From Marinobacter antarcticus (GTDB lineage Bacteria; Pseudomonadota; Gammaproteobacteria; Pseudomonadales; Oleiphilaceae), in contig NZ_DRGY01000046.1 of the NCBI RefSeq assembly GCF_011049865.1, positions 1-64,000 on the forward strand: a stretch of DNA of 64,000 nt, given 5' to 3'. The translations under genes were made by a program, and so were the position numbers. Numbering within the stretch: the first letter of the stretch is position 1; every line of letters begins with the position of its first letter. This document shows positions 25,907 through 35,352 of this stretch, one piece after another. The notes under the pieces are model-generated. The model did not search any database. It saw only the letters and a list, made by a program, of their open reading frames with translations, and was not told the origin of the DNA.

Positions 25907-26249
25907 CGGTCTCGCGTTCTCCGTTTTGGTTGGGAGCTATCTTCGGTTGTTGGTCATTGGCATTCAAGGAAGTGCCCGCCTGGCGCCAGCTGTGCTGTTT
26001 TTTCTTATGAGCAATTGTTCAAGAATAGCAGTAAGTTTGGAAAGCTGGCGAAAAGCCCCCGGCGGGTCATCCACCGGGGCCGTGACCAAATTGTTAGATA
26101 TTCATGAGCAATCGTTGACACAATGCCGGGCTGAACAACGTACAACATGAAGAAACCGTTGAAGGAAACAAAACGGAAGCGGCCGATTCAACACTTTCGC
26201 GACTGGCGTGTCTTTGCGGTATCACGTTAATGATAATAAGGATTATTTC
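25907..26249. other. 343-bp divergent intergenic region
   Basis: No gene is visible. It contains a GC-rich hairpin (CCCCGG 26058-26063 with CCGGGG 26075-26080) that, on the minus strand, ends in CTTTTC and could be an old terminator. It also holds two diverged TetR-like palindromes (26008, 26105), and a TTGACA at 26115 that could be a -35 for the plus-strand cluster. Confidence 0.5.
26008..26118. promoter_or_regulatory. Two diverged TetR-like palindromes
   Basis: TGAGCAATTGTTCA (26008-26021) is a near-perfect palindrome. Its reverse complement agrees with the 19148 operator at 11 of 14 positions. TGAGCAATCGTTGA (26105-26118) agrees with the 19109 operator at 10 of 14. They lie between the acetolactate-synthase-like gene and the TVP38-flavoprotein gene. 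They may serve the same TetR or another one. Confidence 0.35.
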
Positions 26250-28442
26250 ATGACATCGAAAAAATGGATTCTGGTCGGGTTGATCGTGGCAGTGATCATC
26301 GGCTTTATCGCCAGCGGTGGTAATGACCTGCTGACGTTACAGAATCTCAAGGATAACCAGCAGCTTTTGGAGAGCTGGATTGGGCAGAATCTGGTGGTAG
26401 CGGTGCTCGGCTTTGTGGCTATCTATGTTGTGGTCACAGCGCTGTCGCTCCCAGGGGCGACGATCATGACCCTCGCTGGCGGTGCTTTTTTCGGTAACTT
26501 GTACGGCTTGGCGGCGGTGTCGGTTGCCTCCACCATCGGTGCTTCTCTGGCGTTTCTGGTCGCCCGCTTCCTGATGCGCGATACCTTGCGCCGACGCTAT
26601 GCCGAGACGGTGGCGAAAATGGACCGGGGCATTGAAAAGGACGGCGCTTTCTACCTGGCAACCCTGCGACTTGTGCCGGTATTCCCGTTCTTTCTGATCA
26701 ACTTGGCCATGGGTCTTACAGCGATGAAGTTGCGGACCTACGCACTGGTCAGCTGGATCGCCATGCTTCCGGGGACCTTTGTTTATGTCAATGCCGGCAC
26801 CCAGTTGGGCCAGATCCAGTCCACCGGCGACATCGTTTCCGCCGATCTGCTGATTTCCTTTGCGTTGCTTGGGCTGTTCCCGCTGATTGCCAAGGTTGTG
26901 GTGGGCTTTATACGCCGTCGCAGGGTGTACGCGGGCTGGCAGAAGCCTGAGAGCTTTGATTACAACCTGCTGGTGATCGGTGGCGGCTCGGCCGGTCTGG
27001 TCGCTGCCTACATCGCGGCTGCCGTCAAGGCGAAGGTAGCGCTGATTGAAAAGCACAAGCTGGGGGGCGACTGCCTCAACACCGGTTGCATCCCTTCGAA
27101 AGCGTTGATTCGCAGTGCCAAAGCGGCAGACACAATGCGCCATGCCAACCGTTACGGGCTGGAATCTGTGCCGGTAAAGGGTTCCTTCAAAAACATCATG
27201 AACCGGGTTCGCGACGTGATTGCAAAGGTGGAACCCCACGATTCTCCCGAACGCTACCAAAAGCTGGGTGTGGACTGCATCTTCGGCGAGGCCAGCTTCG
27301 TATCTCCCTGGGAACTGGAAGTGAAACACAACGACGGGCGCACGGAGCGCCTGACCGCGCGTAGCATTGTGGTGGCAACCGGCGGCAAGCCGGCCATGCC
27401 TCCGATACCCGGCCTTCAAGATATGAATCCGTTGAGCTCAGACAACTTGTGGGAACTGGACGAGCAGCCAGAACGGTTGTTGGTTCTGGGCGGCGGACCC
27501 ATCGGGTCGGAGTTGGCCCAGGCTTTTGTGCGCCTGGGCAGCAAGGTTATCCAGGTCGAAATGGGTGACCGGTTGTTGGCTAAAGAAGACGACGATGTGT
27601 CCGCCCTGGTGAAGAAGCAGTTTGAGGCCGATGGTATTGATTTGCGCTTGAACCATGCCGCTGCGAAATTCTGCATGGAAGATGGCGAGAAGGTGGTCTA
27701 TTGCGATCACAAAGGCGAGCGGGCGCGTATCCCGTTTGATCAGGTGCTCGTGGCTGTTGGTCGGGCGGCGAATACCGCCGGCCTCAATCTTAACCGGATA
27801 GGCGTTGAAACCCGGCCCAATGGCACAGTGCCGGTGGATGACGACATGAGCTTGCGGTACCCCAATGTGTTCGCGTGCGGCGATGTGGCAGGGCCTTACC
27901 AGTTTACCCACGCTGCGTCGCATCAGGCCTGGTATGCCGCTGTGAACGGTCTGTTCGGTCAGTTCAAACGCTTCAATGTGGACTACCGGGTTATGCCTTG
28001 GGTAACGTTCACCTCGCCCGAAGTGGCCCGTGTGGGCCTGAGCGAAGCGGAAGCGAAAGAACAGGGCGTCGCGTACGAGCTTACCCGTTACGGTCTGGAT
28101 GATCTCGACCGCGCCATTGCAGACAGCGACAACTATGGTTTCATCAAGGTGCTCACGCCGCCGGGCAAGGACAAAATCCTCGGCGCCGTGGTTGTGGGCG
28201 CCCACGCCGCTGAAATTCTGGCGGAGTTTACGCTGGCCATGAAGCACGGCCTGGGCCTGAACAAGATTCTGGGTACCATTCATCCGTACCCCACCTGGAA
28301 CGAATCGGCCAAGTTTGCGGCCGGTGAGTGGAAGCGCGCCCATGCCCCTGAGGGCATTCTCAAACTACTGGAAAAGTTGCACGGTTGGCGGCGCGGCAAA
28401 AACCAGCGCCGTTCATCCGCTACCACAAACGTGACGCATTAA
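26250..28442 (+). CDS. TVP38/TMEM64 membrane domain fused to a mercuric-reductase-like flavoprotein
   Basis: This is a 730-residue fusion. Residues 1-230 hold about 5-6 hydrophobic segments with the VTT/DedA-like core (LSLPGATIMTLAGGAFFG, then LRLVPVFPFFLINLAMG). Residues 235-715 form a class I pyridine-nucleotide disulfide oxidoreductase: FAD motif LLVIGGGSAGLVAAY, redox pair GGDCLNTGCIPS (Cys275, Cys280), NAD(P) motif LVLGGGPIGSELA, and HPYPTWNES at the dimer end. That end replaces the HPTxxE of typical family members, and there is no mercury-binding C-terminal Cys pair. It may be an electron-transfer enzyme docked on the membrane. Start ATG 26250 has AAGGAT upstream. The radical SAM gene follows after 22 bp. 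Confidence 0.87.
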   Translation: MTSKKWILVGLIVAVIIGFIASGGNDLLTLQNLKDNQQLLESWIGQNLVVAVLGFVAIYVVVTALSLPGATIMTLAGGAFFGNLYGLAAVSVASTIGASLAFLVARFLMRDTLRRRYAETVAKMDRGIEKDGAFYLATLRLVPVFPFFLINLAMGLTAMKLRTYALVSWIAMLPGTFVYVNAGTQLGQIQSTGDIVSADLLISFALLGLFPLIAKVVVGFIRRRRVYAGWQKPESFDYNLLVIGGGSAGLVAAYIAAAVKAKVALIEKHKLGGDCLNTGCIPSKALIRSAKAADTMRHANRYGLESVPVKGSFKNIMNRVRDVIAKVEPHDSPERYQKLGVDCIFGEASFVSPWELEVKHNDGRTERLTARSIVVATGGKPAMPPIPGLQDMNPLSSDNLWELDEQPERLLVLGGGPIGSELAQAFVRLGSKVIQVEMGDRLLAKEDDDVSALVKKQFEADGIDLRLNHAAAKFCMEDGEKVVYCDHKGERARIPFDQVLVAVGRAANTAGLNLNRIGVETRPNGTVPVDDDMSLRYPNVFACGDVAGPYQFTHAASHQAWYAAVNGLFGQFKRFNVDYRVMPWVTFTSPEVARVGLSEAEAKEQGVAYELTRYGLDDLDRAIADSDNYGFIKVLTPPGKDKILGAVVVGAHAAEILAEFTLAMKHGLGLNKILGTIHPYPTWNESAKFAAGEWKRAHAPEGILKLLEKLHGWRRGKNQRRSSATTNVTH

Positions 28443-28464
28443 TATCACACACCTAGGAGCATCT

Positions 28465-29436
28465 ATGCCCCTGACCGAAACCAGACCGGCCCGTAGTAAA
28501 CGCATTCCGGCCGTGGAAGTGCTTGAGCCCAGAGCTCGCGACAGCTGGACCCGCACCCGCAACGGCGATCCCCGCGGCTATATTGACGCGAATACGCTCA
28601 AAGAGCTGTGGATCCACACCGGTACCGCCTGCAATCTGGCCTGCCCGTTTTGTCTGGAAGGCAGCCATCCTGGCGATGGCCGCATTCCCGGGATGAAACT
28701 GAGCGATGTGAAGCCGTTTATCCACGAGGCCATGGATATGGGCGTGGAGCAGTTTTCCTTCACCGGTGGCGAACCGTTCGTGATTCGTGATTTTGTGAAC
28801 ATTCTGGATTACGCAAGCCATCATCGCCCCTGTTTTGTGTTGACCAACGCCACCGAGCCGCTGCTGAAGCGTCGGCATCAGGTGTTGCCATTGCTGGACA
28901 ACCCCTATCCGATTCACTTCCGTGTAAGCCTGGATTTCCCTGACCGCGCCCGCCACGACAAGGATCGCGGCGACGGCAGTTTTGAGCAGGCGCTGGAAGG
29001 CATTCACTGGCTGATTGAACAGGGTTTCAAGGTGTCTATTGCCCGCCAGACCGATCCTGATGAAGTGCCGGCAGAGGTAGAAACGGCGTTTCGCGGGATC
29101 TTCCGGGAATGGAAAATTCCGGAGAGCCTGGCGTTTACGGCGTTTCCTGATCTGGGTACGCCGGGCTCGGAGGACGGCAGCCCTGAGATTACCGAGAACT
29201 GTATGGAGAAGTACCCCACCGTCGATAGTCGTGCGCATTTCATGTGCACGTACACCCGCATGCTGGTGAAGAAAGGCGATGCGGTGCGGGTTTATGCGTG
29301 CACGCTGGTGGACGACGACCCGGAATACGATCTGGGCGGTACGCTGGCGGAAAGCATGGAGGAGCGGGTGATGTTGCGACACCACCGATGCTTCTCGTGC
29401 TATCGCTATGGCGCCAGTTGTTCGGCGCCTGCCTAG
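28465..29436 (+). CDS. Radical SAM enzyme of unrecognised subfamily
   Basis: This is a 323-residue radical S-adenosylmethionine protein. The [4Fe-4S] motif is CNLACPFC (Cys56, Cys60, Cys63), followed by FSFTGGEPFV, which binds SAM. A second set of cysteines, Cys261, Cys279, Cys309, Cys312 and Cys319 (MCTY, YACT, CFSCYRYGASC), looks like a SPASM/twitch-type auxiliary cluster with a shortened pattern. It is not the ArsS or MoaA sequence as I know them, and no precursor peptide gene is visible nearby. It lies between the TVP38-flavoprotein and a sodium:solute symporter, so it probably modifies a small molecule. The reaction is unknown. Confidence 0.82.
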   Translation: MPLTETRPARSKRIPAVEVLEPRARDSWTRTRNGDPRGYIDANTLKELWIHTGTACNLACPFCLEGSHPGDGRIPGMKLSDVKPFIHEAMDMGVEQFSFTGGEPFVIRDFVNILDYASHHRPCFVLTNATEPLLKRRHQVLPLLDNPYPIHFRVSLDFPDRARHDKDRGDGSFEQALEGIHWLIEQGFKVSIARQTDPDEVPAEVETAFRGIFREWKIPESLAFTAFPDLGTPGSEDGSPEITENCMEKYPTVDSRAHFMCTYTRMLVKKGDAVRVYACTLVDDDPEYDLGGTLAESMEERVMLRHHRCFSCYRYGASCSAPA

Positions 29437-29473
29437 TCTGTCGGGGCACGATGAATCGGGGGAATAAACAACA

Positions 29474-30880
29474 ATGAGTATCACGGAAGCGTCGCTTTTT
29501 TGGGGGTTCTTGCTGGTTTATGGCGTGGTTATGTATGTGTTGTCGCCGAAAAGCAGGAATTCGAAGTCTTTTTACAAAGGCGCAGATGATCAGGGTAACC
29601 CGGTTAGTCAGTGGTCGCTCACGGCCAGTATTTTTATCAGCTGGATTTTTGCCAAGTCGGTGACCAACGCGGCGAACCTGGGGGCGGCATACGGGGTGAC
29701 CGGAGGCCTGGCCTATGCCAGCTATTGGCTTTCCATTCCGGTGGCGGGTTACGTTATTTACCTGATCCGCACGCAGACCGGTGCGCGCAGCCTGCAGGAT
29801 TTCCTGACCTCACGGTTTGGCCGATTTGCGGGGGTGGCGTTTGCGGCCGCCATTCTGATCCGGCTTTACAACGAAGTGTGGAGCAATACGGCCGTGGTGG
29901 GCGGTTACTTCGGGTTGCCCGGTGAGTGGGAATACTACGTGGCTGCGATGGTGTTCACCGCGTTTACGCTGGCCTACAGCCTTAAAGGCGGGCTGCGTTC
30001 TTCGATTTTCACCGATGTTATCCAGACTTTCGTATTCGTGTTTTTTCTGGGTGCCGTTTTGTTCATGATTGTCCCGGCTAACGATACCTCCGCGTTGCTG
30101 AGCGAGGGTGAGTTCCGGTTGAACGCAGGGTTTGACCTGCTGCTGGTGGCCCTGTTGCAAATGTTCAGCTACCCGTTTCACGATCCGGTACTCACGGATC
30201 GGGGTTTTGTGAACAATGAAAAAACCATGCTCAAGAGCTTTGTGGTGGCCGGGTTGCTGGGCTTTGTGGCGGTGTTTTTGTTCAGCCTGGTGGGGGTTCA
30301 CGCGCGTTTGAACGATATTGATCCCATGGGCAATGCGCCGGCAGCGGTAGGGCAATCGTTGGGTCTGGCCGCGCTGTTTTTCATGAGCGTAGTGATGATG
30401 ACCTCGGCCGGCTCAACGCTGGATTCCACGTTTACGTCGCTGGCTAAATCGTTGGCGGTCGATCTGCCGCGTTTGGCGCAGCGGGCAAAAGACCGGCTGC
30501 CGAGCGTGCGAGTGGGCGCGATCGTGATGATTGTATTCGCGGTGATTGGCAACCTGCCGATGTTTGCCGGAACGGATATCCTCAAAGCCACCACCGTTTC
30601 CGGCACCATGGTTATGGGGCTGGGGCCGGTGTTTCTGTTCTACGGTTTCACCCGCTGGTCGCCGTGGAGTTTTCATCTGAGCTTCTGGACGGGCCTGGCA
30701 CTCGGCGTTTTGATGGCGGCCGGGTTGATTCCGGTGAGCTGGGCCATCGGGGATGGCGCGTACGCCACGCTGCTGGGCGTCAACGCCTATGGGTTCCTTA
30801 TCTGCACCGCCGGCTTTTTCTTGCCGCTTGTTGCGCGCCGCCTCGCCGGAAAATCGTGGGCGGCGGGTGAAGCACGGTGA
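29474..30880 (+). CDS. Sodium:solute symporter family (SSF) transporter
   Basis: This is an inner-membrane protein of 468 residues with 12-13 hydrophobic segments in the LeuT-like SSF arrangement. Family features are SQWSLTASIFISWIFAKSVT at the unwound TM1, the YSLKGGLRSSIFTDVIQTF segment, and SVVMMTSAGSTLDSTFTSLA at the TM8 sodium site (the SxxST part). The substrate cannot be predicted: the best-known members carry proline, sugars or carboxylates. Its stop overlaps the GTG start of the phosphoesterase gene (GTGA), so the two are translationally coupled. It starts 37 bp after the radical SAM gene. Confidence 0.85.
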   Translation: MSITEASLFWGFLLVYGVVMYVLSPKSRNSKSFYKGADDQGNPVSQWSLTASIFISWIFAKSVTNAANLGAAYGVTGGLAYASYWLSIPVAGYVIYLIRTQTGARSLQDFLTSRFGRFAGVAFAAAILIRLYNEVWSNTAVVGGYFGLPGEWEYYVAAMVFTAFTLAYSLKGGLRSSIFTDVIQTFVFVFFLGAVLFMIVPANDTSALLSEGEFRLNAGFDLLLVALLQMFSYPFHDPVLTDRGFVNNEKTMLKSFVVAGLLGFVAVFLFSLVGVHARLNDIDPMGNAPAAVGQSLGLAALFFMSVVMMTSAGSTLDSTFTSLAKSLAVDLPRLAQRAKDRLPSVRVGAIVMIVFAVIGNLPMFAGTDILKATTVSGTMVMGLGPVFLFYGFTRWSPWSFHLSFWTGLALGVLMAAGLIPVSWAIGDGAYATLLGVNAYGFLICTAGFFLPLVARRLAGKSWAAGEAR

Positions 30881-31827
30881 GCGAGGGTCGCAGCTGTCCC
30901 TTGGCTTACCGTTATCGGCCAGCGTCTTTATGCCACGAGATAACACCGGTTGCCGACGATGTTCTGTACATTATTGGCGGGCTTTACGGCAATCCGTTTG
31001 CGCTCGATGAAATTGAAAGCATGGCGCTGGCGGAAGAACGGCAGGGGCGCAGCGTAAAGCTGGTTTTCAACGGTGACTTCAACTGGTTCAATGCCAGTGA
31101 CCAACGGTTCCGTGACATCAATAAACGGGTGCTGAGCCACACCGCCATTTTGGGCAATGTGGACTATGAACTGGCAGCTCCAAGCACCGGTGCCGGATGC
31201 GGTTGTGCCTACCCGGATTTTGTTGATCAGGGCGTGGTTGAACGCTCCAATCAGATAATGATCAGGCTTCAGGAACTCGCCGAAAAACATCCGGATATTC
31301 AGGCGCGGCTGGCCGCTCTTCCGCAATATCGGTGCTTGTTATTTGGAGGCCTAAAGATTTCGGTGTTGCACGGCGATCCTGAGTCTCTGGCCGGTTGGGG
31401 TTTGGCCCATGAATCCGTCGTTGCAGGGAACAGGCAGAGTCTTGAAGAGTGGTTCCGGGCATCCGGGGCGGACCTGCTGGTTTCAACCCATACCTGCCTG
31501 CCTGTGCTCTGGTCGGGAGAGGTAGATGGACGCCCTCGTATGGTGGCCAATAATGGCTCATCGGGTATGGGCAACCTGCGCGCCGACCCCCGCGGATTGG
31601 TTACTCGCATAAGCCGCATAGCCCCGGCGACTGAGCCTGTCGCCGGGATAGTCAGTCACGGTTTGCACGTGGATCTTATGCCGGTTGCTTACGATGTAAA
31701 GGCCTGGCTTGCAGAGTTTGACGGCCTTTGGCCTGCAGGTTCACCTGCCGCCGTTTCATACCGCACACGCCTTCTTGAAGGCAGTGCCCTCGCTCCAGAC
31801 GATCTTGTATTTCCTTCTGCTTTTTAA
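30877..31827 (+). CDS. Calcineurin-like metallophosphoesterase
   Basis: This is a 316-residue protein with a degenerate-looking but complete metallophosphoesterase layout: IIGGLYGN (in place of GDxHG), FNGDFNWF (GDxxxxG), ILGNVDYE (GNHE-like), LHGDP, and STHTCLPV (GHTH-like). The first motif lacks the usual Asp, so metal binding at that site may differ. An insertion with CGCAYPDF is unusual. It starts with GTG inside the symporter stop and is the last gene of the cluster. It might act on a phosphorylated product of the pathway or on a nucleotide. No signal peptide is seen, so it is cytosolic. Confidence 0.8.
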   Translation: MSEGRSCPLAYRYRPASLCHEITPVADDVLYIIGGLYGNPFALDEIESMALAEERQGRSVKLVFNGDFNWFNASDQRFRDINKRVLSHTAILGNVDYELAAPSTGAGCGCAYPDFVDQGVVERSNQIMIRLQELAEKHPDIQARLAALPQYRCLLFGGLKISVLHGDPESLAGWGLAHESVVAGNRQSLEEWFRASGADLLVSTHTCLPVLWSGEVDGRPRMVANNGSSGMGNLRADPRGLVTRISRIAPATEPVAGIVSHGLHVDLMPVAYDVKAWLAEFDGLWPAGSPAAVSYRTRLLEGSALAPDDLVFPSAF

Positions 31828-31976: not shown

Positions 31977-32492
31977 ATGACATCAGAAGGATCGAATACC
32001 ACCGCCATCGCCCTGCGTACACCCGTTAAGGACGATGGCTTCAGGCTCCACCAATTGGTGGCCGAATGCCCACCCCTGGACGCCAACTCGATTTACTGCA
32101 ACCTGTTGCAGTGCAGCCATTTTGCCGAGACCGGCGTGGCGGCGGAGAAAGATGGCGATCTGGTCGGCTTTATTTCCGGTTATATCCCCCCCGGCAAGGC
32201 TGAAACCGTTTTTGTCTGGCAGGTTGCGGTTCACGAGAAAGGTCGTGGACAGGGTCTGGCCAAGCGGATGCTCAAAGCCATTGTGGCGCGAGATGCGTGC
32301 GAAAACGTGACGCATATGGAAACCACCATCACCGCCGATAACGAAGCCTCATGGGCGCTGTTTCGCTCGTTTGCTCGGGACATGGGCGCCGAGATTGAGC
32401 ACCACGAGCACTTTGAGAAAGACACGCACTTCGGCGGCAAGCACGATTCTGAATTTCTGTTGCGCATAGGGCCGTTTACCCAAAAGCCCTGA
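31977..32492 (+). CDS. ectA: L-2,4-diaminobutyrate acetyltransferase
   Basis: EctA acetylates 2,4-diaminobutyrate with acetyl-CoA to N-gamma-acetyldiaminobutyrate, the second committed step of ectoine synthesis. The 171-residue GNAT protein shows LAVHEKGRGQGLAKRML-type acetyl-CoA binding (VAVHEKGRGQGLAKRM), the ANSIYCNLLQCSHFAETG block and TTITADNEASWALFRSFA, all typical of EctA. It opens the operon ectA-ectB-ask. The gap to ectB is 97 bp. Confidence 0.95.
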   Translation: MTSEGSNTTAIALRTPVKDDGFRLHQLVAECPPLDANSIYCNLLQCSHFAETGVAAEKDGDLVGFISGYIPPGKAETVFVWQVAVHEKGRGQGLAKRMLKAIVARDACENVTHMETTITADNEASWALFRSFARDMGAEIEHHEHFEKDTHFGGKHDSEFLLRIGPFTQKP

Positions 32493-32589
32493 GAATTTTT
32501 GCAGGCTCCCCGCCTGCTCAAGCGCCCCAGCGCCAGATTCATCGTTAAAGAATTCTACTGAATAGGCCATATGGTCGAGAGGTAATATC

Positions 32590-33858
32590 ATGGATATTTT
32601 CAATTCCACTGAATCCGAAGTGCGTGTTTATAGCCGTGCTTTTCCAGTGATTTTTAATCGCGCCAAAAACGCGCACCTGTATACAGAAGACGGCAAACAG
32701 TACCTGGACTTTCTGGCCGGTGCCGGCTCACTGAACTACGGCCACAACAACGATATCCTGAAAAAATCACTGCTTGAATACATCGAAGCAGATGGCGTAA
32801 GCCAGGGCCTGGACCTGTTCACAACGGCCAAGCACGACTTTATCGAGTCGTACAAGACACATATTCTGGATCCTCGCGGCCTGGACTATAAAATGCAGTT
32901 CACTGGCCCTACCGGCACCAATTGCGTGGAAGCGGCCCTGAAGCTGGCCCGTAAAGTAAAAGGCCGTACCGGTATTATCTCGTTCACCAACGGTTTTCAC
33001 GGTGTGACCATGGGTGCCGTTGCCGCAACCGGTAACAAGCATCACCGCGGTGGTGCTGGTATTCCCCTGACCGGGGTAGATTTCATGTTCTACGACGGCT
33101 ACCTGGGGGAAGACGTTGATACCCTGGCCGTTATGGACAAGCTGCTGTCCGATAGCTCCTCCGGTATTGAGCTGCCGGCTGCAGTAATCGTGGAGGCGGT
33201 TCAGGGCGAAGGTGGTTTGAACGCGGCCCGTGCCGAGTGGTTGAAGGGGCTGGAGACTCTGTGCAAGAAGCACGACATTCTGCTGATTCTGGACGATATC
33301 CAGGCCGGTAATGGCCGTACCGGGGAGTTCTTCAGCTTTGAGTTTGCCGACATCAAGCCGGATATTGTGACGGTGTCCAAGTCCCTGAGCGGCTACGGCC
33401 TGCCCATGGCGCTGGTATTGTTCAAGCCGGAGCTGGACGTTTGGGATCCGGGCGAGCACAACGGCACCTTCCGGGGTAATAACATGGCGTTCATCACCGC
33501 GCGTGCCGCTGTGGATACCTATTGGAAAGACGACACGTTTGCCAATGAGGTGAAGGAAAAAACTCAGGTTCTGGGTGACGGTTTGCAAGCGATTTGCAAC
33601 AAGTATCCGGGGCAGTTCAAACTGAAAGGACGCGGTTTGATGCGGGGCATCGAATCAGCCAACGCTGATATTACCGGTCTGATTACCCAGCGCGCTTTTG
33701 AGCACGGCCTGATCATCGAGACCAGTGGTCCGAATGATGAAGTCATCAAATGCCTGATGCCGCTGACAACCAGCAAGGAAGATCTGAAACTGGGCGCCGA
33801 ACTGCTGGCAAAGAGTGTGGATGAAATCATGCAGGAAGGAATCAGCGAGGCGTCGTAA
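32590..33858 (+). CDS. ectB: Diaminobutyrate--2-oxoglutarate transaminase
   Basis: EctB converts aspartate semialdehyde and glutamate to 2,4-diaminobutyrate, the first committed ectoine step. The 422-residue class III PLP aminotransferase carries [38 protein letters not shown] and the PLP lysine in [13 protein letters not shown]. Full length for the family, with GGTAATATC upstream of the ATG. In a normal operon ectC would follow. Here ask starts 52 bp after the stop. Confidence 0.96.
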
Positions 33859-33909
33859 GACGCTCCGCAACCCGGTATATTCATTCTGCAGGTAAGGCAA
33901 GGTAAAACT

Positions 33910-35352
33910 ATGACAAATCAATTACATACCGTCGAGAAAATCGGTGGTACTTCGATGAGCAACTACGAAGCCGTACGCGATAACATCATTGTCGCGAATC
34001 GTAGCAAGGAAGATCTTTACCAGCGTATTTTTGTGGTGTCTGCCTACGCCGGCGTAACCAACGAGTTATTAGAGCATAAGAAAACGGGCGAGCCGGGCGT
34101 ATACGCGCTGTTCGCGGATGCGGAATCTGACTGGGCCTGGGGCGATGACCTCACCAAGTTGATAAAGTTTATTACGGACATCAACGGTGAGCTGTTTGAA
34201 GACTCGATGCTTAAGCAACAGGCAGATCAGTTCATTACCGATCGTATTGAAGGCGTTCGCGGATGCCTGATTGATCTCCAGCGCCTGTGTTCATACGGGC
34301 AGTTCCAGCTCGAAGAACATCTGCTGACCGTTCGTGAAATGCTTGCAGGTATTGGTGAAGCCCACAGTGCTTTCAACACCACCTTGAAGCTCCAACAGGA
34401 AGGGATCAATGCGCGGTTTGTGGATTTAACCGGTTGGCGCGACGCCGAACTGTTGCCGCTGGATGAAAAGCTGAAGCAGGCGTTCGATGCCGTTGATCTC
34501 ACCCGTGAGCTGCCAATCGTTACCGGTTATGCCCAGTGCAGGGAAGGCCTGATGCGCTCTTTCGACCGGGGCTACAGTGAGATGACATTCAGCCGTGTGG
34601 CGGTTATTACCGAGGCCCGTGAAGCGGTTATTCACAAGGAATACCACCTGAGCTCCGCAGATCCCAACATTGTGGGTGCCGACAAAGTGGTTCCTCTGGG
34701 ACGCACCAACTACGACGTGGCTGACCAGTTGGCAAACCTGGGCATGGAAGCGATTCATCCCCGTGCTGGCAAGGGCCTACGCCAAGCGGAGATTCCGCTG
34801 AGGGTGATGAATACCTTTGAGCCCGAGCACACTGGCACCCTGATCACTCGGGGCTACGTGAGCGAAAAGCCACAGGTTGAGATTGTTGCCGGCGCCAAGG
34901 GTGTATTTGCCATCGAAGTGTTTGATCAGGACATGCAGGGCGAGCCGGGTTCGGATCGTCGCATTCTGGATATTCTGAGCCGCTACAAAGTGCGCTTCAT
35001 GGCCAAGGATACCAATGCCAATACGATTACCCACTACGTTGGCAGCACGCTCAAGCACGTCAAACGCGTGGTGAGTGCGTTGAAAGATGAGTTTCCCAAC
35101 GGTGAGATCAGTACCCGTAAAGTGGCAATAGTTTCAGCCATTGGCAGTGATCTGAAAGTGCCGGGCGTTCTCGCGCGGTCGGTCAAGGCGCTGGCTGATG
35201 AGGAAATCAGCGTGTTGGCTATGCATCAGTGCATGCGTCAGGTTGATATCCAGTTTGTGATCGATGAAGACAACTACGAGAAAACGATCATTGCGTTGCA
35301 CGGTGTTCTCATCGAACCCCTCAATCATGAGTACGCTATCGCGGCGGCCTGA
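33910..35352 (+). CDS. ask: Ectoine-pathway aspartate kinase (Ask_Ect)
   Basis: This is a 480-residue aspartokinase of the ectoine-specific class. It starts VEKIGGTSMSNYEAVRD, the Ask_Ect form of the KFGGTS motif. It has the FDRGYSEMTFSRVAVITEA catalytic segment and two C-terminal ACT domains (about 330-470, including IVSAIGSDLKVPGVL). It phosphorylates aspartate and so feeds the aspartate semialdehyde used by EctB; this class is thought to escape normal lysine/threonine feedback. Its presence marks the locus as a true ectoine operon even though ectC is missing. Confidence 0.94.
   Translation: MTNQLHTVEKIGGTSMSNYEAVRDNIIVANRSKEDLYQRIFVVSAYAGVTNELLEHKKTGEPGVYALFADAESDWAWGDDLTKLIKFITDINGELFEDSMLKQQADQFITDRIEGVRGCLIDLQRLCSYGQFQLEEHLLTVREMLAGIGEAHSAFNTTLKLQQEGINARFVDLTGWRDAELLPLDEKLKQAFDAVDLTRELPIVTGYAQCREGLMRSFDRGYSEMTFSRVAVITEAREAVIHKEYHLSSADPNIVGADKVVPLGRTNYDVADQLANLGMEAIHPRAGKGLRQAEIPLRVMNTFEPEHTGTLITRGYVSEKPQVEIVAGAKGVFAIEVFDQDMQGEPGSDRRILDILSRYKVRFMAKDTNANTITHYVGSTLKHVKRVVSALKDEFPNGEISTRKVAIVSAIGSDLKVPGVLARSVKALADEEISVLAMHQCMRQVDIQFVIDEDNYEKTIIALHGVLIEPLNHEYAIAAA

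Follow-up and report, generated by a model that had tools for sequence, protein, structure and literature searches.

The window, by which we mean the whole analysed stretch of 64,000 nucleotides, is positions 1 to 64,000 of contig NZ_DRGY01000046.1 of Marinobacter antarcticus. It contains four consecutive genes that encode a fusion of a TVP38/VTT domain with a flavoprotein, a radical S-adenosylmethionine (radical SAM) enzyme of a family without a name, a symporter and a protein with a metallophosphoesterase fold (Table 1). The four open reading frames (ORFs) lie on the plus strand, with gaps of 22 bp and 37 bp followed by a 4-bp overlap, and their coordinates agree exactly with those in the original prediction, an earlier reading of the DNA letters in which the genes were described as a single unit and a candidate undescribed system. 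We consider the unit a variant rather than an undescribed system because the neighbours of its genes match the known arsenosugar type. In our interpretation it is probably an operon for arsenosugar-type (organoarsenical) biosynthesis whose radical SAM enzyme takes the role of ArsS, the radical SAM enzyme reported to adenosylate arsenic in the biosynthesis of oxo-arsenosugars (PMC12159101). The basis of this interpretation is gene content, conservation, family placement, the swap between ArsS and the new enzyme amid matching gene content in one genome, and the mutual absence of the two enzymes in one sample of genomes.

Table 1. Genes of the four-gene unit in the window
Product	Position	Strand	Length (residues)	Remark
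TVP38/VTT-flavoprotein fusion	26250..28442	+	730	ATG within a longer frame opening at 26208
Radical SAM enzyme, family without a name	28465..29436	+	323	Pfam Radical_SAM 3.8e-17
Sodium:solute symporter (SSS) family transporter	29474..30880	+	468	PF00474
Metallophosphoesterase-fold protein	30877..31827	+	316	Predicted calcineurin-like fold

The radical SAM enzyme carries the CxxxCxxC motif (C56, C60, C63) and a second set of cysteines (C246, C261, C279, C309, C312), all of which are invariant in an alignment of 42 sequences of the family, while C319 is present in at least 90% of these sequences. Both the existence of a second cysteine set and the notion that the enzyme is not ArsS had been put forward earlier, and both hold: the score against the ArsS family model TIGR04167 is 40.5 bits, far from the cut-off of 300. 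None of the 25 NCBIfam models listed among the 37 matched by the enzyme was matched above its cut-off. The structural model (predicted local distance difference test, pLDDT, 87) has its best matches among enzymes of the twitch/SPASM type, namely BlsE (Z 19.5) and SkfB (Z 19.4), and also SuiB and MoaA. Comparison of family profiles with hhalign relates the enzyme to ArsS with 98% probability over 262 columns that run through the C-terminal cysteines (CxxC, six residues, C), although for the core the higher score belongs to a MoaA-like protein. ArsS alone aligns through these C-terminal cysteines, over 271 columns as compared to 132 for the MoaA-like protein. Endings of the CxxC..C kind are usual among SPASM and twitch enzymes.

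The genomic surroundings of the new enzyme were analysed at 61 loci outside the genus, 53 of them from the 80 radical SAM matches listed and 8 additional ones. This set excludes L040, which shares its contig with L115, and the Marinobacter loci L099 and L101. Relatives of at least one of ArsM (the arsenite methyltransferase) and the glycosyltransferases TIGR04282 and TIGR04283 are encoded within 6 kb at 50 of the 61 loci, and relatives of at least two of them at 36, which agrees with the earlier remark that the genes recall arsenosugar-type loci. Counted separately within the same distance, TIGR04283 relatives occur at 38 loci, TIGR04282 relatives at 37, flavoproteins at 24, ArsM at 23, TVP38 at 21 and a phosphorylase of the MTAP type at 8. 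Unsupervised clustering of 64 loci again found these families to be the most recurrent neighbours; 6 of the 64 loci also share an ORF that, by eye, resembles a photolyase. The representative phosphorylase scores above the NCBIfam cut-off for MTAP, and the representative ArsM matches a solved arsenite methyltransferase (5evj) at 8e-101. Among 20 canonical ArsS loci used for comparison, 18 have at least one of the same three arsenic genes, with ArsM at 9 loci, TVP38 at 8 and a flavoprotein at 6. TVP38 and flavoprotein genes, fused or separate, are found near ArsS as well as near the new enzyme. A context of peptide modification (ribosomally synthesized and post-translationally modified peptides) was considered and rejected, given that the recurrent neighbours are relatives of arsenic genes and not peptide genes; a dedicated search of the window for small precursor ORFs was not part of this assessment.

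The relationship between the new enzyme and ArsS was assessed by sampling 369 genomes from the class, with E-value cut-offs of 1e-40 for ArsS, 1e-20 for the new enzyme and 1e-35 for TIGR04283. ArsS is present in 182 genomes and the new enzyme in 8, and none of the 369 genomes has both (Fisher one-sided p = 0.004, or 0.008 when the window's genome is left out). Within the 187 genomes that lack ArsS, TIGR04283 occurs in 7 of the 8 that have the new enzyme as opposed to 11 of the 179 that do not (p = 1.7e-7). ArsS was above cut-off in none of 20 genomes tested, 19 of which have the new enzyme and one of which (G112) has the phosphoesterase alone. Although not ArsS by family model, the new radical SAM enzyme stands in the ArsS slot of arsenosugar-type loci. 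The sample also includes 11 genomes with TIGR04283 that have neither ArsS nor the new enzyme, and a third enzyme may fill the slot there.

A link between the two enzymes is provided by G687, a genome from the same order. A profile search of the phylum for the phosphoesterase returned 5 of 299 genomes, which are the window's genome, three genomes of the genus, and G687. At its locus L236 the genes for a canonical ArsS, the symporter, the phosphoesterase and the TVP38-flavoprotein follow one another on one strand. This ArsS scores 450 bits against the cut-off of 300 and lies immediately upstream of the symporter, and identities to the window's proteins are 40% for the phosphoesterase, 59% for the symporter and 60% for the flavoprotein part. 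TIGR04283 is found above cut-off on a separate contig of G687, as it is in the window's genome. L236 thus has the gene content of the window except that ArsS and the new enzyme are exchanged, and this one genome is the strongest indication that the new enzyme takes the role of ArsS, as well as that symporter and phosphoesterase are part of the pathway.

The symporter matches PF00474 with 41.3 bits (gathering threshold 22.8) and TIGR00813 with 50.3 bits against a cut-off of 184. Its nearest solved relatives are the sodium/glucose cotransporters SGLT1 and SGLT2 (2e-6), a relationship that does not fix the substrate. The phosphoesterase-fold protein has no Pfam or NCBIfam match at E≤0.001. Metallophos_2 is matched by 5 of 14 members of its family at E≤1 (best 4e-9), the window's own protein matching no phosphoesterase model, and a profile search of the sequences in the PDB gave a match at chance level only. 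The fold assignment comes from an AlphaFold model built with the family alignment (mean pLDDT 92.8), which is calcineurin-like. Five phosphoesterase chains superimpose with Z 20.7–21.1 and a root-mean-square deviation of 3.0–3.2 over 215–238 residues, including 1nnw (Z 21.1) and the Ap4A hydrolase SapH (3qfn, Z 20.8). The canonical motifs of the dinuclear site, which we take to be DxH, GDxxD, GNH(D/E), H and GHxH, were placed via the strands of the model. The DxH position reads G35-L36-Y37 in 14 of 14 family members, and C108-G-C110 is likewise present in all 14; these are the altered first metal motif and the cysteine insertion described earlier. C7 and C207 are invariant as well, Cys207 replacing the second histidine of GHxH; GDxxD reads GDxxW, and D67, N94, H165 and H205 are retained in 14 of 14. 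With DxH lost and GHxH changed throughout the family, the motifs are incomplete and a canonical metal enzyme was rejected as an explanation for the fourth gene. These residues suggest that one metal site of the pair is broken; cysteines may have rebuilt it.

In the TVP38-flavoprotein, Pfam identifies VTT_dom (3.8e-26) and Pyr_redox_2 (8.1e-62), the latter corresponding to a pyridine-nucleotide disulfide oxidoreductase. The flavoprotein half is of the MerA/dihydrolipoyl-dehydrogenase type, with the redox CxxxxC in GGDCLNTGCIPSKAL, and a C-terminal cysteine pair is absent from the sequence. Among solved structures, mercuric reductases and dihydrolipoyl dehydrogenases are the closest to it. All 25 NCBIfam models listed among the 62 matched score the protein under their cut-offs, and the MerA model TIGR02053 yields 377.3 bits against a cut-off of 454.45.

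Conservation of the unit was counted over the 27 loci of Marinobacter and Tamilnaduibacter among the 80 radical SAM matches listed. The order TVP38-flavoprotein, radical SAM enzyme, symporter, phosphoesterase is kept at 25 of the 27 loci, and the closest named loci among these matches are from Marinobacter (92%). L077 and L090 have the first two genes only, without symporter and phosphoesterase in the stretch fetched. At L072 (11142-11944) the symporter match is just 62 residues long and continues straight into a phosphoesterase match that is itself shortened, which looks like the result of a deletion. A strong match to the radical SAM gene is present in 35 of 37 genomes of the genus (the window's included) versus 2 of 21 others of the order, the weaker matches in the order sample being other radical SAM proteins. 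The gap between the radical SAM gene and the symporter measures 174–452 bp in 10 of 11 relatives read (L070, L071, L073, L078, L080, L083, L084, L086, L099 and L101) and contains palindrome-like repeats recognized by eye; in L082, the locus of M. nauticus DSM 50418, where all four genes are present, it is 34 bp, similar to the 37 bp in the window. This wide, repeat-filled gap is a caveat to the description of the genes as one transcription unit. Beyond Marinobacter and Tamilnaduibacter, none of the loci examined had all four families next to one another, so the idea of a co-occurrence beyond close relatives stands only for parts of the set: the halves recur elsewhere (the radical SAM gene with TVP38 at 21/61 loci and with a flavoprotein at 24/61, the symporter with the phosphoesterase at 7/10), and the set occurs with ArsS in G687.

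The glycosyltransferases are encoded elsewhere in the window's genome, where TIGR04283 (270.9 bits) and TIGR04282 (173.7 bits) are both above cut-off and adjacent to each other on another contig. TIGR04283 is above cut-off in 60 of 61 genomes of the genus. An unclassified methyltransferase-like ORF, recognized by eye (L064, 8742-9518), lies upstream of the adjacent glycosyltransferase genes of the window's genome; it has no NCBIfam match at 1e-15 and could be a substitute methyltransferase.

Several observations weigh against the interpretation of the unit as an arsenosugar-type operon. The word "arsenosugar" in the names of the models is annotation, and the best NCBIfam model for the radical SAM enzyme is NF049973, the Rv1681 family (99.8 bits, cut-off 380). 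When single sequences were aligned to the radical SAM family profile with hhalign, the core proved no nearer to ArsS of L236 (69.7) than to L250 (100.0), a protein labelled MoaA-like by eye; L253, L251 and L252 gave 90.3, 77.1 and 55.0, respectively. The core is closer to the MoaA-like protein and therefore specific common descent with ArsS does not follow; a divergent ArsS by descent was rejected on this ground, independent recruitment being equally possible. The representative neighbours are under curated cut-offs, slightly so for the glycosyltransferases (TIGR04283 160.5–171.4 bits, cut-off 182; TIGR04282 104.8–126.1, cut-off 134) and with 175.1 versus 263 bits for ArsM (NF008823). Of the 61 loci outside the genus, 11 have no relative of ArsM, TIGR04282 or TIGR04283 within 6 kb, and these loci include 5 of the 7 closest relatives (68–72% identity), some of the contigs being short. 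Within the genus, ArsM lies within 6 kb at one of the 27 loci and TIGR04282 or TIGR04283 relatives at none. Over all 369 genomes of the class the association of the new enzyme with TIGR04283 reaches only p = 0.049, because half of the class has TIGR04283, and the Fisher tests treat genomes as independent, which they are not. The operon that links ArsS with the symporter, phosphoesterase and flavoprotein comes from a single genome. Finally, a search of the window's genome (95.5% complete) with one ArsM query gave no match at E≤1e-10, and full-length ArsM is present in 4 of 61 genomes of the genus, with an 88-residue part in one more. At L093 and L094 an ArsM gene stands upstream of the operon. 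We interpret the scarcity of ArsM as methylation having been lost in the genus. Among the close relatives of the radical SAM enzyme (68–72% identity) that lack an arsenosugar gene within 6 kb are L095, L097, L100, L102 and L105, from Pseudohongiella, Litchfieldella and others, L105 being cut by the contig end.

We regard the membership of the unit in the pathway as reasonably supported, and we infer every chemical step. By analogy with ArsS, the radical SAM enzyme would cleave SAM reductively and attach its 5'-deoxyadenosyl moiety to an arsenical in the trivalent state, probably a dimethylated one. This would give a deoxyadenosine that carries arsenic; loss of its base would then leave an arseno-ribose for the TIGR04282 and TIGR04283 glycosyltransferases. 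The TVP38-flavoprotein would act as a membrane-docked NAD(P)H-dependent disulfide reductase, most likely keeping the arsenical or its carrier thiol reduced; that it supplies electrons, as the original prediction proposed, is a conjecture. The symporter would most likely import a substrate with Na+. Given the apparent loss of methylation in the genus, uptake of a methylated arsenical that would stand in for the missing ArsM is an attractive, if conjectural, idea. The phosphoesterase-fold protein might, speculatively, act on a phosphorylated or thiol-bound intermediate, and its cysteines are a bold candidate for a thiolate site that holds an arsenical. The fullest version of this scheme, in which a second, separately recruited radical SAM family makes the carbon–arsenic bond, Marinobacter has given up methylating arsenic de novo and scavenges a methylated arsenical through the symporter, and the phosphoesterase-fold protein, with cysteines (C108, C110, C207) in place of metal ligands, holds or processes the arsenical via their thiolates, seems to us doubtful as a whole.

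The alternative that survives best is that two independent modules merely abut in Marinobacter, an arsenosugar-type half and an unrelated half for uptake and hydrolysis of, for example, a nucleotide or an osmolyte. Outside the genus, 7 of 10 loci have the symporter within 6 kb of the phosphoesterase; none of these 10 loci has ArsM, TIGR04282 or TIGR04283 within 6 kb or the new radical SAM gene within the same distance, and one has ArsS. The separation is also suggested by the relatives that carry the first half only (L077, L090), by the wide gap between the halves in most relatives, and by the p value of 0.06 for the company of ArsS or the new enzyme, one of which is present in 8 of the 10 phosphoesterase-bearing genomes of the class. 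These 10 are out of 369 genomes, and the phylum has 5 out of 299, the window's genome included in each. However, TIGR04283 is present in 9 of the 10 phosphoesterase-bearing genomes, the window's included, versus 187 of the 359 others (Fisher p = 0.016), the pair sits between canonical ArsS and the TVP38-flavoprotein in L236, and at L048 the flavoprotein is 4.7 kb from the phosphoesterase. We treat two abutting modules as possible but rather unlikely, and see the symporter–phosphoesterase pair as a rare addition to the arsenosugar-type locus.

A different product of the radical SAM enzyme is harder to reconcile with the gene content. The enzyme could make another organoarsenical, for example by 3-amino-3-carboxypropyl transfer as in ArsL, or act on another metalloid such as selenium; its core has no particular kinship to ArsS, and ArsL is reported as a further radical SAM family that forms carbon–arsenic bonds beside ArsM (PMC8552651). 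On the other hand, a 5'-deoxyadenosyl product would suit both the relatives of the glycosyltransferases and the MTAP-type phosphorylase (8 of the 61 loci), and ArsS fills the same slot amid otherwise matching gene content in L236, so that we consider this alternative unlikely. That the enzyme is unrelated to arsenic, being a twitch/SPASM dehydrogenase or decarboxylase or an Rv1681-type protein that drifted beside arsenic genes, would accord with its best NCBIfam model, its structural matches and the 11 loci without arsenosugar genes nearby, but is very improbable in view of the arsenosugar neighbours that recur in many lineages and the mutual absence with ArsS.

The four-gene unit is directly followed in the window (31977-35352) by genes for EctA, EctB and an aspartate kinase, all above NCBIfam cut-offs. 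The usual place of EctC is between EctB and the kinase, and there is no space for it here; EctB and the kinase are likewise adjacent in L057 and L059.

If the interpretation of the unit as an arsenosugar-type operon is correct, the ArsS slot can also be filled by another radical SAM family. This would widen the range of arsenosugar makers to genomes that seem ArsS-negative, and it would offer a natural case for comparing the ways in which radical enzymes make carbon–arsenic bonds. Oxo-arsenosugars have been reported from cyanobacteria (PMC12159101) and arsenosugars from seaweeds. The symporter would be a candidate uptake transporter for an organoarsenical; a recent review that treats cells generally, with humans in view, describes the uptake of small organoarsenicals as largely unknown (PMC12608789). 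Since Marinobacter can be grown in culture and nearly all sampled genomes of the genus carry the radical SAM gene, the idea lends itself to a direct test. The new elements are the second radical SAM family in arsenosugar loci and the symporter paired with a cysteine-bearing phosphoesterase that has GLY in place of DxH. No description of this radical SAM family was found in the open-access papers surveyed on arsenosugars, on ArsS, on radical SAM enzymes and arsenic, or on Marinobacter and arsenic.

The closest known systems resemble the unit or its components in part. The flavoprotein half shares CxxxxC with mercuric reductase and dihydrolipoyl dehydrogenase, but unlike mercuric reductase it is fused to TVP38, stays below the MerA cut-off and has no C-terminal cysteine pair. 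The fourth protein has the fold of the asymmetric Ap4A hydrolase SapH (3qfn) and of the phosphoesterases 1nnw, 2gju and 3rqz, and differs from them in GLY for DxH, GDxxW, Cys207 and the C108/C110 insertion. The Rv1681 family gives the best NCBIfam score for the radical SAM core, yet that score is far under the cut-off and covers about 170 aligned residues. The arsinothricin cluster of Burkholderia gladioli (ArsL, ArsM, ArsQ) also has a radical SAM enzyme beside an arsenite methyltransferase; as reported in PMC8552651, however, ArsL has 428 residues and a predicted aminocarboxypropyl transfer activity, and the transporter is an efflux permease related to GntP. Canonical ArsS (TIGR04167) loci are alike in having ArsM, relatives of TIGR04282 and TIGR04283, TVP38 and a MerA-like flavoprotein as neighbours, and in L236 the symporter, phosphoesterase and TVP38-flavoprotein stand beside ArsS itself. 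In contrast to canonical ArsS loci, the window has another radical SAM family, its genome has no ArsM match and keeps the glycosyltransferases on another contig, and a symporter and a phosphoesterase are added to the locus.

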